NCBI GenBank assembly: GCA_958346165.1
Contig: CATVQO010000092.1
Coordinates: 1 to 6,147, forward strand
DNA length: 6,147 nt
Origin: an uncultured Collinsella sp.
GTDB taxonomy: Bacteria; Actinomycetota; Coriobacteriia; Coriobacteriales; Coriobacteriaceae
Direction of reading: 5' to 3'
In this document: piece after piece, positions 56 to 6,147 of the stretch
How the letters are laid out: each line of letters opens with the position of its first letter
How positions within the stretch are numbered: the stretch's first letter is position 1
The notes under the pieces: generated by a model
Told to the model about the DNA's origin: nothing
Seen by the model: only the letters and a program-made list of their open reading frames with translations
Database searches by the model: none
Made by a program: the position numbers and the translations under genes

Positions 56-2041
56 ATGAAGCTCGCACTCGCACAGATCGATATGCGCCTGGGTGATATT
101 GAGGGTATCTGCGGTCGCATCGAGGACCAGGCGCGCCTGGCCCATGAGCGCGGTGCGCGCGTGTTGTGCGTGCCGGCTCCGCTCTTTATGGGAGCCCTGC
201 CCGGCGGCCTGGTGGGCGCTGCCGACTTTGAGCACGACATACTTGCCGGCTTGACCGGCGTCGCCGAGCGTATCCAAGAGCTCGATATGATCTGCATCGT
301 GCCCGCGGCAGTTTCGTTTGAGGGCCAGCCCCTGCTCGACTACATGATGCTCAAGGACGGCCATGTGGTGCCGGCCCGTTCGAGCATTGCCCTGCAGCGT
401 GGTGGGACCGGCGATGCCCGTTGGGCGCCGCCAGTCTTCGACGTGGACGGCGTGCGTATCGCCGTGATCTTCGACTTGGACCGCGAGCTCGAGATGCTGC
501 CGACCGGCGTCGACCTCATCGCCTATTTCCAGTTCAACGCATTCGATATGACCGACCGCGAGACCGCCGCGATTGCCGCCGTGCGCAGCGGAGCCTACCG
601 CAAGATCGCATCTAAGCGCAGCGTGTGGTTTGCCTGCATGGCGCCGGTCGGTGCGTACGACGAGTCGGTGTATACCGGCGGGTCGTTTGTACTCGACGAC
701 TGCGGCCGCGTGGTGGCCCAGGCGCCGTGTTTTGAGGAGAGCCTGCTGGTTCAGGAGATTCAGCGCGGCGTGATGCTCGATGCCTTGGAGGACCACGAGC
801 TGCCCGAGTTTCGTTCCGAGGAGTGGTTGTGGCAGGCGCTGGTGCTCGCTGTGCGCGATAACGCCCGAGCCCATGGTACGTCGCGCGCCGTGGTGGCGCT
901 CGAGGGCGACCTGCCGTCGTCCCTGCTGGCGGCGCTTGCCGTCGACGCCCTAGGTCCGCGCAATGTGGTCGGCCTGGTGTTGGGACGCAACCGCATCTTT
1001 ACGCCGGCGCAGGAGGAGGCCGAGGCTGCTCGCTGTGCCGCCGTTCGCGCCATTGCCGAGCGCCTGCATATTCGCACGGTTGAGCGCGATGCGCCGGATG
1101 CCGCGCGTGTGCTCGACCGCGATGTGTCGGCGGGCGACGCCGAGCGCCTGCGTTCTCGCACGCTGGGCCTCATGCTGGAGGATACGGCGCTCGAGCTGGG
1201 TGCGATGGCGCTGAGTCCGCTGTCCAAAACTGAGTACGCGCTGGCGGCGCCCGCGCTTTGCGGCGGCTACCAGGGCGATTATGCGCCCTTTGGTGACGTA
1301 TACCTGTCGACGCTCGAGTTTGTGGCGCGTGTGCGTAACCGCACGTCCGCCGTGGTGCCGCAGGAGCTTGTGACGCTCAACGCGGTGGAGGATTGCATGG
1401 AGCGCGTGCTGGCGCGGGCGCTCTCGACGCTCGACGGCCCGGTCGACATGCTCGATCGTGCGGCGCAGCTGCTCGGCGGACTTGAGCCGGGCGAGGTCGA
1501 TGGCACGCTCGAGTCGCACGTCGACCGCAACCGTCCCTTCGACGACATTCCGATGGCTGCCGGCAAGCCCGAGGCCTGCTCACTGCTGCTGATGCTCGTG
1601 CGCCAGGGAGAGGCGGCTCGCCGCCAGCTGCCGACGGCGCCGATCGTCTCGGCCCGGTCGTTTGCCGAGCGTGCCTGGCCGTATATGCTCGCGTGGTCCG
1701 ACCTGGGGCTCGACGGCAAGGAACGTATGACGGTCGATGCGCTGGCGCGCGCCGAGGTGAACCGCTTTGCCGACGAGGATACAAGCGAGCGCATGCGTGG
1801 CGAGATGATGGGCATACTGGGTGACCTGCTGGGTATTTCGCCCGAGCAGATGGAGGAGCTGCGCTCCGAGGACGGCCAGCGCCGCCTGCACGAGGGCATG
1901 AAAAAGTTTGAGGGCGAGGTCCAGGACGCCATCGATAAGATGATGGGCGGGCAGGGCGGCCCGCAGGGCGGGCCCCAGGGCACGCCGATGCCGCAACCGC
2001 CGATGGATCCTAGGCAGTTCCCGTTCTTCAGCCAAAACTAA
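56..2041 (+). CDS. NAD+ synthetase-like (NadE-type) two-domain protein, probable pseudoenzyme
   Basis: The 661 residues follow the layout of glutamine-dependent NAD+ synthetase. A nitrilase-fold amidohydrolase domain spans about 1-260: MKLALAQID start, a VGAYDES segment near 198-204 and GGSFVLDDCGRVVA at 208-221. A synthetase domain spans about 275-545: AALAVDALGPRNVVG at 292-306, LSKTEYALA at 389-397, APFGDV at 410-415 and a LPTAPIVSARSFAERAWP segment near 525-542. True enzymes use a Glu-Lys-Cys triad to release ammonia from glutamine and an SGGxDS pyrophosphate-binding loop to activate the nicotinate dinucleotide. Here the Glu position reads Ala41 (VPAPLFMG), the Lys region reads ARSSIALQR (107-115), the Cys position reads Phe139 (IFDL for ICED), and the loop reads EGDLPS (283-288). 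Both activities are therefore probably lost, although the frame is intact over its normal length. Residues 544-661 form an added charged, helical tail ending in Gly/Pro/Gln-rich sequence. Start: ATG with a good ribosome binding site, three bases after an upstream stop. Automatic annotation would probably call it NAD+ synthase; the actual role is unknown. Confidence 0.82.
   Translation: MKLALAQIDMRLGDIEGICGRIEDQARLAHERGARVLCVPAPLFMGALPGGLVGAADFEHDILAGLTGVAERIQELDMICIVPAAVSFEGQPLLDYMMLKDGHVVPARSSIALQRGGTGDARWAPPVFDVDGVRIAVIFDLDRELEMLPTGVDLIAYFQFNAFDMTDRETAAIAAVRSGAYRKIASKRSVWFACMAPVGAYDESVYTGGSFVLDDCGRVVAQAPCFEESLLVQEIQRGVMLDALEDHELPEFRSEEWLWQALVLAVRDNARAHGTSRAVVALEGDLPSSLLAALAVDALGPRNVVGLVLGRNRIFTPAQEEAEAARCAAVRAIAERLHIRTVERDAPDAARVLDRDVSAGDAERLRSRTLGLMLEDTALELGAMALSPLSKTEYALAAPALCGGYQGDYAPFGDVYLSTLEFVARVRNRTSAVVPQELVTLNAVEDCMERVLARALSTLDGPVDMLDRAAQLLGGLEPGEVDGTLESHVDRNRPFDDIPMAAGKPEACSLLLMLVRQGEAARRQLPTAPIVSARSFAERAWPYMLAWSDLGLDGKERMTVDALARAEVNRFADEDTSERMRGEMMGILGDLLGISPEQMEELRSEDGQRRLHEGMKKFEGEVQDAIDKMMGGQGGPQGGPQGTPMPQPPMDPRQFPFFSQN
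1946..1978 (+). repeat. Short in-frame tandem repeat encoding GGQ-GGPQ-GGPQ
   Basis: Two adjacent 12-base units (1955-1966 and 1967-1978) differ at only a few bases and each encode Gly-Gly-Pro-Gln. A 9-base relative encoding Gly-Gly-Gln precedes them at 1946-1954. They lie in the low-complexity tail of the NAD-synthetase-like protein. The period is a multiple of three, so copy-number change would keep the frame. Confidence 0.6.
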
Positions 2042-2123: not shown

Positions 2124-2166
2124 TGAATAGTGCGCGGGGCCTTGCCTTGCGCCGTGCTTGTGGCGA

Positions 2167-2173
2167 GGGGAGG
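2167..2173 (+). promoter_or_regulatory. Ribosome binding site that sets the ruvC start
   Basis: GGGGAGG ends five bases before the TTG at 2179. An in-frame TTG at 2158 would add seven residues but has no such site upstream and would place this purine run inside the coding region. The start at 2179 also gives MVILGIDPG, the usual RuvC N-terminus. Confidence 0.7.
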
Positions 2174-2178
2174 TTGGC

Positions 2179-2700
2179 TTGGTCATTTTGGGTATCGACC
2201 CCGGTTTGGCCCATACGGGTTGGGGGATTATCGAGGAGCGGCGCGGAGAGGTTCGCTGCCGTGCCTACGGTTGTATCGAGACCAGCGCGGGCAGTCCGCT
2301 CGCGGTGCGTCTGTCGCATATCGCCCGCGACCTCAAGGGCGTCGTCGAACGCTACCGTCCCGATACCGCGGCTATCGAGAGCATCTACTTTGGCGCTAAT
2401 GTCCGCTCGGCCATCCCCACGGCGCATGCCCGTGGTGCCGCGCTCGTGGCGCTTTCGGAGTGCGCGCTCGAGATTGGCGAGTACACGCCTATGCAGATTA
2501 AGCAGGCTGTGGTGGGCACCGGCGCTGCAGATAAGCGGCAGGTCGCGTATATGGTTCGTACGCTCACACAGCTCGATCACGACCCGCATCCCGACCATGC
2601 AGCCGATGCCCTAGCCTGCGCCATCTGCCACGTAAACCTCAGCCGCACCCGTGCCCTCACCGGTGGCGAGTTCTATCAACAGAGAGGAACCGGATACTGA
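2179..2700 (+). CDS. ruvC: Crossover junction endodeoxyribonuclease RuvC
   Basis: RuvC is the homodimeric, metal-dependent nuclease that nicks two opposing strands of a Holliday junction after RuvAB branch migration. The 173-residue product has the normal family length. The RNase H-like fold is marked by MVILGIDPGLAHTGWG at the N-terminus with Asp7, then AIESIYFGANVRSA with Glu67, then PDHAADALACAICH with His140 and Asp143. The third acidic ligand of the E. coli enzyme is here most simply aligned with His140, as in the Thermus-type active site; Asp139 next to it is an alternative. The start is a TTG chosen because of the strong ribosome binding site and the family N-terminus. The stop overlaps the ruvA ATG by one base (TGATG), which points to translational coupling. 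It is the first gene of the operon behind the LexA box. Confidence 0.95.
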   Translation: MVILGIDPGLAHTGWGIIEERRGEVRCRAYGCIETSAGSPLAVRLSHIARDLKGVVERYRPDTAAIESIYFGANVRSAIPTAHARGAALVALSECALEIGEYTPMQIKQAVVGTGAADKRQVAYMVRTLTQLDHDPHPDHAADALACAICHVNLSRTRALTGGEFYQQRGTGY

Positions 2701-3320
2701 TGATTTCCCAGCTCCATGGAACGCTTGTCGAGGCCACGATGAGCTCGGCCGTTGTCGATGTGTCGGGCGTGGGCTTTGAGCTCGGCATCTCGGGCAGCAC
2801 TGCCGCCACGCTGCCTACACCCGGCGGCGAGGTGCGTCTCTATACCCGTATGCAGGTGCGCGAGGACGCCATGACGCTCTTTGGCTTTGCCTCCAAGGAC
2901 GAGCGCACGATGTTCGATCGGCTCGTGTCCGTCTCGGGCGTCGGTCCGCGCCTGGCGCTCGCCGTGCTCTCCACCTATACCGTGGGACAGCTGTATTCCC
3001 TGGTAATGGCCGAGGATGACAAAGGCATGGCCAAGGTACCCGGCGTGGGCAAAAAGACAGCGCAGCGCCTCATCTTGGAGCTCAAGAGCACCTTTGCCAA
3101 GGACAAAGGCTTTGTGCCGGTCGACGCGATTCCCGGCCAGGTTGCGATGCCCGTGCCCGCTGCTGCTCCCTCGGCCATCGACGATGCCCGTGCGGCGCTC
3201 CTTTCCATGGGCTTTAGCCCGCAGGAGACCGATGTTGCCCTGAGCGGGTATGATGGGCAGGATATGCGTGTCGAGGATCTGCTCGGCGCGGCGCTTAAGC
3301 GACTTGGAATGGATGCGTGA
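2700..3320 (+). CDS. ruvA: Holliday junction branch migration complex subunit RuvA
   Basis: RuvA tetramers clamp the four-way junction and load RuvB rings on opposite arms. The 206-residue product shows all three domains. An OB fold covers about 1-63 ([12 protein letters not shown] start) and carries Glu55-Asp56 in [13 protein letters not shown], the acidic pin at the same numbering as in E. coli. Two helix-hairpin-helix motifs follow: [15 protein letters not shown] (77-91) and [17 protein letters not shown] (113-129). A flexible Pro/Ala-rich linker covers about 139-158, and a small C-terminal RuvB-binding domain runs from about 159 ([10 protein letters not shown], then [13 protein letters not shown]). 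The ATG overlaps the ruvC stop by one base. An AGAGAGGA ribosome binding site at 2681-2688 is rather far, 11 bases away, so coupling to ruvC translation probably helps. Nothing is missing or unusual in the protein. Confidence 0.96.
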
Positions 3321-4387
3321 TGTGGGAAGCCGATGATTCTCAGGACCTGTGGTCGACGCCCGGAAACTCGCCGGCGGCATCCATGGCGCATGGCGAGCGC
3401 ATGGTGGGCTCGGAGCTGACGCCCGAGGACCTCGATGTCGACCGCACCCTGCGCCCTCAGCGCCTGGATGACTACTGCGGCCAGGAACACATCAAGCAGA
3501 GCCTTCGCGTGCTCATCGAGGCGGCGCAAAGCCGCGGCGAGACGCTCGACCACGTGATCTTCTCGGGCCCTCCGGGTCTGGGCAAGACCACGCTGGCTAC
3601 GGTTATCGCCAACGAGCTGGGCGCTCAGATTAAGACGACGAGCGGTCCGGCCATCGCGCGCACCGGCGACCTGGCTGCCATCCTGACTAACTTGCAACCG
3701 GGCGACGTGCTGTTTATCGACGAGATCCACCGCCTCAACCGCTCGGTCGAGGAGGTCCTGTATCCTGCGATGGAGGACTTTGCCCTCGATATCGTGATCG
3801 GAAAGGGTCCGGCTGCACGCTCGATTCGCCTGGATATCCCCAAGTTCACGCTGGTGGCGGCAACGACTCGCTCGGGCATGTTGACCGGCCCGCTACGCGA
3901 CCGTTTTGGCATTTCGTATCGTCTGGATTACTACACCGTCGAGGAACTCGCCCAGATTGTGACACGCTCGGCGACCATCCTGGGCGTGACGATTGACCAT
4001 CCCAGCGCGCTCGAGATCGGCTCGCGTTCGCGCGGCACGCCGCGTCTTGCCAACCGTCTGCTCAAGCGCGTGCGCGACTATGCGCAGGTGCGCGGCAACG
4101 GTCCCATCGAGCTCGATATCTGCCGTCAGGCACTCGAGTTCTTTGAGATCGATGAGCTCGGCTTGGACTGGATGGATATTCGCATTTTGGAGACGCTTGC
4201 CAAGACGTTCTCCGGACGTGCCGTCGGCCTGACGACGCTTGCCAGTGCGGTGGGCGAGGACCCGGGTACGCTCGAGGATGTCTACGAGCCCTATCTGCTG
4301 CAGTGTGGGTTGATGATTCGCACGCCGCAGGGTCGCCAGGCAACCCTGCGCACATTCGAGCATTTGGGTATCGAGCCGACCCTGTAG
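3320..4387 (+). CDS. ruvB: Holliday junction branch migration helicase RuvB
   Basis: RuvB is the AAA+ hexameric motor that pumps DNA through the RuvA-bound junction. The 355-residue product has Walker [10 protein letters not shown] (83-91, Lys89), Walker B LFIDEIH (131-137), the sensor-1 strand LVAATTR (178-184), the arginine finger in PLRDRFG (Arg193), the sensor-2 region [18 protein letters not shown], and a winged-helix C-terminus with [18 protein letters not shown] chose the ATG at 3320, which overlaps the ruvA stop as TGATG exactly like the ruvC/ruvA junction. A GTG at 3317 would add one residue. Either start leaves about 24 residues before the region that aligns with common RuvB N-termini; the later ATG at 3383 would remove most of that but lacks a clear ribosome binding site. 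It is the last gene of the operon. Confidence 0.96.
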
Positions 4388-4470: not shown

Positions 4471-4493
4471 CTATTGCGCGCGCGTGCTATGCT
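4467..4493 (+). promoter_or_regulatory. Probable fhs promoter
   Basis: TGCTATGCT at 4485-4493 is an extended -10 element with hexamer TATGCT, four of six matches to TATAAT. TTTACT at 4467-4472 is a possible -35 with four of six matches, at a slightly short 15-base spacing. Transcription would begin near 4500, leaving a leader of about 35 bases. That is too short for a known tetrahydrofolate riboswitch. The proposed -35 overlaps the T-run of the terminator candidate. Confidence 0.5.
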
Positions 4494-4521
4494 GGATTGG
4501 TCTTTTTCTCATCCGGTAACG

Positions 4522-4527
4522 AAAGGA
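4522..4527 (+). promoter_or_regulatory. Ribosome binding site of fhs
   Basis: AAAGGA lies six bases before the ATG at 4534, a good spacing. This fixes the fhs start. Confidence 0.65.
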
Positions 4528-4533
4528 CCGCCC

Positions 4534-6147
4534 ATGCCTACTGACATCGAAATCGCACGTTCTGTTACGCCGCTGCCTATTACCGAGGTGGCCAAGAACG
4601 CCGGCGTCGACGTTAAGCATCTGATTCCGTACGGCTTTGACAAGGCAAAGGTCGACTATTCCCTGCTCAACGAGCCAACTGATCACCAGGCCAAGCTTGT
4701 CCTCGTGACCGCTATCAATCCCACGCCCGCAGGCGAGGGTAAGACCACTACGACCATCGGCCTGGCCGACGGCCTGCGCCGTCGCGGCGTCAAGAGCGCC
4801 GTGGCCCTGCGCGAGCCTTCGCTCGGTCCCGTGTTTGGCGTGAAGGGCGGTGCCGCCGGTGGCGGTTGGGCTCAGGTCATCCCCATGGAGGACATCAACC
4901 TGCACTTTACCGGCGACTTCCATGCCATCGGTGCCGCCAACAATCTGCTGGCAGCCATGCTCGACAACCATATTCAGCAGGGCAACCAGCTCGGCATCGA
5001 CGTTAAGCGCATCACCTGGAAGCGCGTTGTCGACATGAACGACCGTCAGCTGCGCCATGTTATCGACGGCATTGGCGGCAAGGCCCAGGGAGTACCGCGC
5101 GAGGATGGCTTCGACATCACCGTTGCCTCCGAGGTCATGGCAATCCTGTGCCTGTCCACGAGCATCAATGACCTCAAGGAGCGCCTGGGCGAGATCGTCG
5201 TCGGCTACAGCTATGCCGGCGAGCCCGTCCGCGCCCGTGACCTTAAGGCTCAGGGTGCCATGGCGGCCCTGCTCAAGGACGCGCTCAAGCCCAATCTGGT
5301 GCAGACGCTCGAGGGTACGCCTGCGTTTGTCCACGGCGGTCCCTTCGCCAATATTGCCCACGGCTGCAACTCCATCATGGCCACCCGCATGGCCATGCGC
5401 TTTGGCGACGTCGCGATTACCGAGGCTGGTTTCGGTGCCGACCTGGGTGCCGAGAAGTTCCTCGACATCAAGTGCCGCATGACTGGCATTCGTCCCAGCG
5501 CCGTCGTGGTCGTCGCAACCGCCCGCGCGCTCAAGTACAACGGTGGTGTTGCCAAGGCCGACCTCAACGAGGAGAACCTCGAGGCCCTCAAGGTCGGCAT
5601 GCCCAACCTGCTGCGCCACGTCGACAACATTCAGAATGTCTACGGTCTGCCCTGCGTGGTCGCCATTAACCGCTTCCCGACGGACACCGAGGCCGAACTC
5701 GAGCTCATCGAGTCCGAGTGTCAGAAGCTCGGTGTCAACGTTAAGCTGTCCGAGGTCTGGGCCAAGGGAGGCGAGGGCGCGCTCGACCTGGCCGATGAGG
5801 TCATGCGCTTGACTGAGCAGCCGAGTGAGCTCCAGTTTGCCTACGAGGACGGTGCCGATGTTGCCGATGCCCTTGAGGCCGTTGCCACTAAGGTTTACCG
5901 CGCCGACGGCGTCGACTTTACGCCGGCTGCCAAGCGTCAGCTCGCCGAGCTGCGCGAGAACGGCTTTGGCAACCTGCCGGTGTGCGTGGCCAAGACGCAG
6001 TACAGCTTTAGCGACAACGCCAAGGCGCTGGGCGCTCCCGAGGGCTTCCGCATCACCGTGCGCGAGCTCAAGGTTTCCGCCGGTGCCCACTTTGTGGTCG
6101 CGCTGACCGGCAGCGTTCTGACCATGCCTGGCCTGCCCAAGGTTCCC
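4534..6147 (+). CDS. fhs: Formate-tetrahydrofolate ligase (10-formyl-THF synthetase), 3' end cut by window
   Basis: The enzyme joins formate to tetrahydrofolate with ATP, giving 10-formyl-THF for purine and formyl-methionine synthesis and, in acetogens, for the methyl branch of the Wood-Ljungdahl pathway. It works in the cytoplasm as a tetramer. The frame is open for 538 codons to the window edge, and the family is about 556 residues, so roughly 20 are missing. It opens [11 protein letters not shown]. The ATP-binding loop is [12 protein letters not shown] (63-74), followed by [20 protein letters not shown] (93-112), a [14 protein letters not shown] segment, [12 protein letters not shown] matching the second family signature, and TMPGLPKVP at the edge, which normally lies close to the C-terminus. 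Position 112 is Trp where the signature has Tyr. The gene has its own promoter and ribosome binding site, separate from ruvB. It is missed by a search that requires a stop codon, because none occurs before the window ends. Confidence 0.95.

Follow-up and report, generated by a model that had tools for sequence, protein, structure and literature searches.

A NAD+ synthetase homologue of Collinsella that lacks the catalytic residues of both its domains and ends in a conserved F-S-x-N tail

The locus and its NadE-like gene

The window analyzed here, a stretch of 6,147 nucleotides, is a segment of a Collinsella chromosome, and the gene at its 5′ end encodes a protein with the architecture of glutamine-dependent NAD+ synthetase (NadE). 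We call it the pseudo-NadE gene for the reasons given below. It was found in 20 loci of named records, all from Collinsella, with 94 to 98% identity across the gene. It is followed in the window by ruvC, ruvA, ruvB, and the gene for formate-tetrahydrofolate ligase (Table 1), and in the top-matching record (L001) the genes upstream of it encode desulfoferrodoxin, an SNF2-family helicase, and DnaE. The names given to the family in the source records, where informative, are hypothetical, nitrilase-related, or NAD+ synthase.

Table 1. Positions of the pseudo-NadE gene, its parts, and the ruv genes in the window
Feature	Position	Strand	Basis or remark
pseudo-NadE gene	56..2041	+	661 codons and stop; ATG start, one stop
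Pseudo-glutaminase (nitrilase-like) domain, residues ~1-240	56..775	+	Alignment; residues 1-237 fold match to amidases
Catalytic Glu/Lys/Cys positions of the pseudo-glutaminase, A41, S110, F139/D140	within 56..775	+	Alignment
Pseudo-synthetase domain, residues ~241-548	776..1699	+	Pfam, fold match, alignment
Degenerate nucleotide loop, EGDLPS (residues 283-288) replacing SGGxDS	902..919	+	Alignment
Retained Lys391-Thr392	1226..1231	+	Lys in 308/308 noncanonical homologues
CGG (402-404) in place of YGD	1259..1267	+	Alignment, Collinsella copies
C-terminal extension, residues 549-656, helices and then a Gly/Pro-rich disordered arm	1700..2023	+	Alignment, prediction
C-terminal motif FFSQN (657-661); consensus in the family, F-S-x-N-COOH; putative docking peptide	2024..2038	+	303/308 homologues
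ruvC, conserved downstream neighbor	2158..2700	+	Longest listed frame taken
ruvA	2700..3320	+	
ruvB	3317..4387	+	

Both sets of catalytic residues are lost across the family

An initial annotation, made from the sequence, had described the protein as keeping the segment order of NadE while both active sites were apparently erased. The first part agrees with the profile and fold matches. The two-domain nitrilase and synthetase fold of glutamine-dependent NadE is present, with Pfam scores of 35.4 bits for NAD_synthase PF02540 (cut-off, 21) and 26.1 bits for CN_hydrolase (cut-off, 23.2), and residues 1 to 538 match the NCBIfam NAD+ synthase model PRK13981 with 141 bits, which is below its cut-off of 479.

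The second part was borne out by an alignment of 29 canonical NadE rows with 133 relatives of the window protein. The Glu-Lys-Cys triad of the glutaminase is absent from the protein and from its family: the Glu column falls on Ala41 and the Lys column on Ser110 in a Ser-rich stretch, both as annotated, and the Cys, said to be lost at Phe139, has its column directly behind that residue, the exact column being ambiguous between 139 and 140. None of the three residues was kept in the relatives (0% for each). The SGGxDS ATP loop and the YGD motif, both expected of a NadE, are replaced by EGDLPS and CGG at the places that had been annotated, and no intact catalytic residues, which would have spoken against the annotation, were aligned elsewhere in the protein. 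Among the relatives, the first Ser of the nucleotide loop was kept in 6%, its second Gly in 11%, and its Asp in 6%; the Glu of the KSE segment was kept in 6%, the Asp of YGD in 3%, and the Asn, Gln, Arg, and Arg of the NLQARxR segment in 0 to 10%. Constancy of 95% or more among the canonical rows was seen at 63 columns, and at 14 of them the canonical residue is also found in 80% or more of the relatives (D14, P40, G46, G208, L282, G284, S288, A298, L299, G300, L337, L374, R522, and P542).

The same pattern was seen in 308 noncanonical homologues, a set that includes many close Collinsella copies. They came from protein searches (the best 120 of 228, the best 120 of 293, and 68 of 68 matches), with 11 of 305 listed proteins dropped for a length outside 480 to 760. 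The glutaminase Glu was found in none of the 308, and the former active-site positions vary, with Ala, Met, Leu, Phe, Ser, and others at position 41 and Asp, Ser, Thr, Gly, or Arg at position 285. Lys391, on the other hand, was kept in all 308, and K391, T392, P411, and D414 were invariant in the 133 diverse rows. The altered residues are common to all 19 complete Collinsella copies, save for position 402 (C in 16 and S in 3).

A canonical nadE of about 670 residues, with its SGGLDS and CEDLW motifs intact, was present in each of the five Collinsella genomes searched, answering the earlier question of whether a second, canonical gene exists. That the window protein is still a NAD+ synthetase, with unusual residues, is thus very improbable: the overall fold and segment order would accord with it, but the first Ser, second Gly, and Asp of the ATP loop, the Asp of YGD, and the Glu of KSE are nearly always lost in the family. 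Residual NAD+ synthesis was rejected on the loss of the catalytic residues in the alignment, together with purifying selection and the sharing of the altered residues.

The gene is under purifying selection

The initial annotation had preferred a retained, noncatalytic role over decay, partly on account of the intact 661-codon frame. This frame is uninterrupted in the window and in all 19 complete Collinsella loci, and the twentieth locus is cut by a contig end. The median ratio of nonsynonymous to synonymous substitution rates (dN/dS), the test for purifying selection that had been proposed, was 0.061 for the pseudo-NadE gene (169 of 171 Collinsella pairs, those with dS > 0.05), compared with 0.013 for ruvB, 0.028 for ruvA, 0.023 for fhs, and 0.082 for the canonical nadE (5 sequences, 10 pairs); the ruvC median came out as not-a-number and was excluded. 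The family is also abundant, with one protein cluster at 90% identity holding 17,469 member sequences.

A gene in decay would explain why both active sites are gone and why 49 of the 63 near-constant canonical columns keep their residue in less than 80% of the relatives. However, the 19 intact frames, the dN/dS of 0.06, and a tail and gene order conserved family-wide leave that explanation scarcely credible, and we rejected it, the active-site losses being shared among the copies. The scattered and broken orthologues and the relaxed selection that mark a pseudogene were not found among these loci. What was found is the signature of a pseudoenzyme, a homologous fold with its catalytic residues lost that is conserved and under purifying selection. 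The intact frames, the low dN/dS, the wide conservation, and the separate canonical nadE all agree with the retained role first suggested, and the gene product is almost certainly functional but has ceased to make NAD+.

A conserved C-terminal tail

Behind the synthetase domain the protein carries an extension of about 110 residues that was not seen in the aligned live NadE rows of the class Coriobacteriia. Its last residues, FFSQN, had no place in the initial annotation. An F-S-x-N end was found in 303 of the 308 noncanonical homologues and in none of the 29 canonical rows; one of the five exceptions ends in FAQN, and the remaining four seem to be truncated, fused, or frame-shifted. The 303/308 is the unselected figure, since the 133 aligned relatives (alignment A2) were chosen for an FS.N ending and their count of 133/133 is therefore not evidence. 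F-S-x-N also makes up the last residues in all 36 family loci that were read. In the 19 Collinsella copies the peptide is FFSQN throughout while its codons differ (TTC TTC AGC CAA AAC versus TTT TTC TCG CAG AAC), and the constraint on the tail is not explained by an overlapping gene, because about 116 bases separate the stop from the longest listed ruvC frame.

The tail persists even where the synthetase part has degraded further. A 1,085-residue family member (L173:1142-4396, in G241) has no PF02540 match in this part and a large Asp/Glu-rich insertion before the tail, yet ends in PFSIN. Loci L111 and L112 (G049 and G176) match the synthetase profile poorly, with 15 bits for PF02540 in L111, and keep the tail PFSEN. 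These members bear on the possibility that the protein is a different enzyme, whose remodeled pockets catalyze something new through K391, T392, and D414. The invariance of these residues and of P411 speaks for it, but positions 41 and 285 vary between relatives and the synthetase part of L111 and L173 decays while the tail stays, and we regard a new enzyme as unlikely.

Alternatively, F-S-x-N could mark the protein for degradation or sorting instead of docking it to a functional partner. C-terminal degrons, as is generally known, likewise take the form of free end motifs on disordered arms. However, no second tailed protein was recognized in our pattern searches, which would be unusual for a general signal; the searches were partial, using DNA patterns that accept only TCN serine codons and overlook some possible tails, among them the window's own (AGC), so that absence is not shown. 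Of 25 genomes from the same genus as G001, 22 matched, against 5 matches in a backwards control. Apart from the pseudo-NadE gene, some matches end in TGG, which is not a stop, one such sequence recurring across several genomes, and three have a real stop (G105, G125, and G149). Of these three, the two that could be read lie at the ends of open stretches, 36 and 73 codons long, which bear no likeness to each other. In 12 other genomes there were 11 matches, all of them the pseudo-NadE gene, and one genome gave none. We rate such a signal a slim alternative and regard the tail as a likely docking motif.

Half-dead intermediates and the order of loss

We surveyed 67 NadE-like frames from 65 class genomes without the family, leaving out the fragmentary G126, G128, and G142. 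Four frames have lost the glutaminase residues while keeping the synthetase motifs, L200 (G257), L201 (G289), L206 (G294), and L248 (G151), and a fifth such intermediate is L118 (G227). The PF02540 scores are 255 bits for L118, 211 for L200, and 237 for both L201 and L206. The frame-broken L266 and the Cys-to-Gly L202 were not counted. In the latter (G066), the position of the glutaminase Cys holds Gly while Glu and Lys are kept, possibly a separate early loss.

Some of these half-dead proteins already have a tail. The G227 intermediate ends in GFPIFSKN and adjoins a desulfoferrodoxin gene, as relatives of the window gene often do; L200 and L201 end in GWTFLEN and GLNFLDN, and L206 and L248 have no tail. 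An F-x-x-N end thus occurs in three of the five intermediates and in none of 59 live NadE proteins of the class (exact P = 0.0002, with relatedness ignored). No match to the long, canonical NadE was found in the five intermediate genomes at an E value of 1e-40, and no ruv gene was recognized in the stretches read around the intermediates.

In a synthetase-domain tree (49 rows), the 14 rows of the family group together (100/100), and their sister is the set of five intermediates (96/85); the two together (95/95) lie inside the class's own NadE. The family's exact place is less sure than these supports suggest because its branch is long. In a glutaminase-domain tree (48 rows), the 19 dead rows all fall into a single clade (100/99), and within it G227 groups with the family at 100/98, so that G227 is placed differently in the two trees. 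Both trees fit a single loss of the glutaminase, apart from L202, which is placed elsewhere. As read from the trees, the glutaminase site was lost first and the synthetase site later; the tail probably came before the synthetase loss, which took place in a lineage that had a second NadE.

Distribution and gene order

The family profile matched 127 of 296 class genomes at an E value below 1e-100, and four more genomes carry the family on inspection (L111, L112, L173, and L174). With the intermediate G227 set aside, this makes 130 family-bearing genomes; the counts are mostly by profile score, dead sites and tail having been read in 36 loci and tails in some further ones. The organism names among the matches listed are Collinsella, Coriobacterium, Olsenella, Thermophilibacter, Atopobiaceae, Coriobacteriaceae, and Coriobacteriales, and we infer that the large class genomes with a single-domain NadE are Eggerthellaceae. 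We also drew 396 genomes of the phylum, class genomes among them, so that other classes were thinly sampled. Of the matches listed, those extending to the profile end came from class genomes already known as carriers; those in newly drawn genomes stop near profile positions 513 to 542, like canonical NadE.

The long NadE was found in 131 class genomes, 129 of which also carry the pseudo-NadE family, and a separate canonical nadE is accordingly present in 129 of the 130 family-bearing genomes. The remaining one, G288, had no canonical NadE at all, which suggests an incomplete assembly. The long NadE without the family was seen in G061 and G063, neither giving a family match at an E value of 1e-10. 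G063 keeps ruvCAB; G061, a 1.6-Mb contig, lacks recognizable ruvC and ruvB as well.

This near-perfect co-occurrence is what would be expected if the protein were a regulatory subunit of the long NadE, with the tail adjusting NAD+ synthesis. However, co-occurrence also tracks phylogeny, and the F-x-x-N tail of three intermediates without a long-NadE match seems older than that partner; because tails occur without the long NadE, we rate a regulatory subunit as quite improbable.

In 118 of 129 placed genomes the pseudo-NadE gene precedes ruvC on the same strand by no more than 400 bases, and in 7 more it lies within 3 kb. It is 11.7 kb from ruvC in G278 and on another contig in G103, as is the intermediate gene in G227; for G217, the place of ruvC is unlisted, yet ruvC lies downstream at its locus. 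A long gene stands between the pseudo-NadE gene and ruvC at L079:6690-8681, where it encodes a DUF4012 protein, and a long gene has a similar position in L082 and L109. Elsewhere in the window, a long open frame at 4471-6147 (-) runs antisense to the formate-tetrahydrofolate ligase gene and is probably a mirror frame of a codon-biased gene.

Proposed role

We propose that the protein is a pseudoenzyme derived from the class's own NadE, with its folded body acting as a scaffold and its tail docking on a partner, and we put the probability of this reading at roughly 0.6. Canonical NadE relatives are oligomers. The body would present the C-terminal peptide to a pocket on the partner, and the protein would act by docking, not catalysis, probably holding or signaling to another protein. 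The docking role may have begun at a time when the cell still relied on this protein for NAD+ synthesis, and its catalysis would have become dispensable once the distant long NadE, a second enzyme, assumed the task. A docking or scaffold role that predates the synthetase loss is favored by the tail and by the half-dead intermediates. The degenerate pocket might, speculatively, still sense a small molecule.

The candidate partner is probably not the long NadE, since the tailed intermediates show none. It may belong to recombination or replication, because the gene sits upstream of ruvCAB in nearly all placed genomes, a neighborhood that is steady, and because ruvC, ruvB, and pseudo-NadE are jointly absent in G061. 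RuvCAB itself is a doubtful partner, gene order being the only lead to it. Slightly more doubtful still is the idea that this former NAD+ synthetase is a dedicated RuvCAB accessory factor in Coriobacteriales that tethers this machinery by means of F-S-x-N-COOH and might couple the processing of Holliday junctions to the dinucleotide or nitrogen status. The ruvCAB link is loose, given that G063 lacks the family and that the genes lie apart in G103, G227, and G278.

Several points weigh against the scaffold and docking role. Both domains of the window protein still score above their Pfam cut-offs, and the invariant K391, T392, and D414 would also be consistent with some residual ligand binding or catalysis. 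The tails of L200 and L201 match the family only at F(-4) and N(-1), and with L206 and L248 having none, the tail was either gained after the glutaminase loss or lost again. In the glutaminase tree, the family without G227 reaches only 80/60, and G227 is a long branch. The missing long NadE in the intermediate genomes could be a completeness gap. The pseudo-NadE gene is not indispensable, since no family match was found in G063, a genome with both ruvCAB and the long NadE, and the docking partner is a candidate only, its binding being proposed from sequence.

Relation to known systems

Pseudoenzymes as such are already known. A NadE family that has both sites dead, carries a C-terminal motif, and is joined to half-dead intermediates did not turn up in search listings of the open literature, which leave out preprints and most subscription papers, and it appears new in that sense; passages of PMC3376133 likewise contain no report of a pseudo-NadE family.

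Living relatives here show how an enzyme turned step by step into a pseudoenzyme, from loss of the glutaminase and gain of the tail to loss of the synthetase beside a second enzyme, and this makes it a testable idea that a moonlighting role precedes the loss of catalysis. The protein is widely conserved in common gut bacteria, where it is encoded beside core repair genes, and its tail peptide is a ready bait for a partner.

With glutamine-dependent NadE (PDB 3n05, 4f4h, and 5kha; NCBIfam PRK13981) the window protein shares the two-domain fold. Compared with these structures, its family has lost the glutaminase triad, SGGxDS, YGD, and the NLQARxR segment and has gained the extension of some 110 residues ending in F-S-x-N-COOH. 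The long NadE, which has about 670 residues and is the canonical enzyme in the genomes that carry the family, shares the superfamily and the domain order; it is distant in sequence, keeps SGGLDS and CEDLW, and falls among the outgroup rows of the synthetase tree on a long branch whose place is unsure. We take it to be of the Mycobacterium tuberculosis type (PDB 3dla). The NadE proteins with a dead glutaminase and a live synthetase (G227, G257, G289, G294, and G151) resemble the family in their glutaminase losses, in the F-x-x-N tail of three of them, and in the desulfoferrodoxin gene adjoining that of G227, but differ in that their synthetase motifs are intact and no second NadE was found in these genomes. 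A more remote likeness is to bacterial single-stranded DNA-binding protein (SSB), which recruits partners through a disordered C-terminal peptide: its sequence differs from that of the window family and its fold is unrelated, but like the latter it carries its conserved last residues on a flexible linker.
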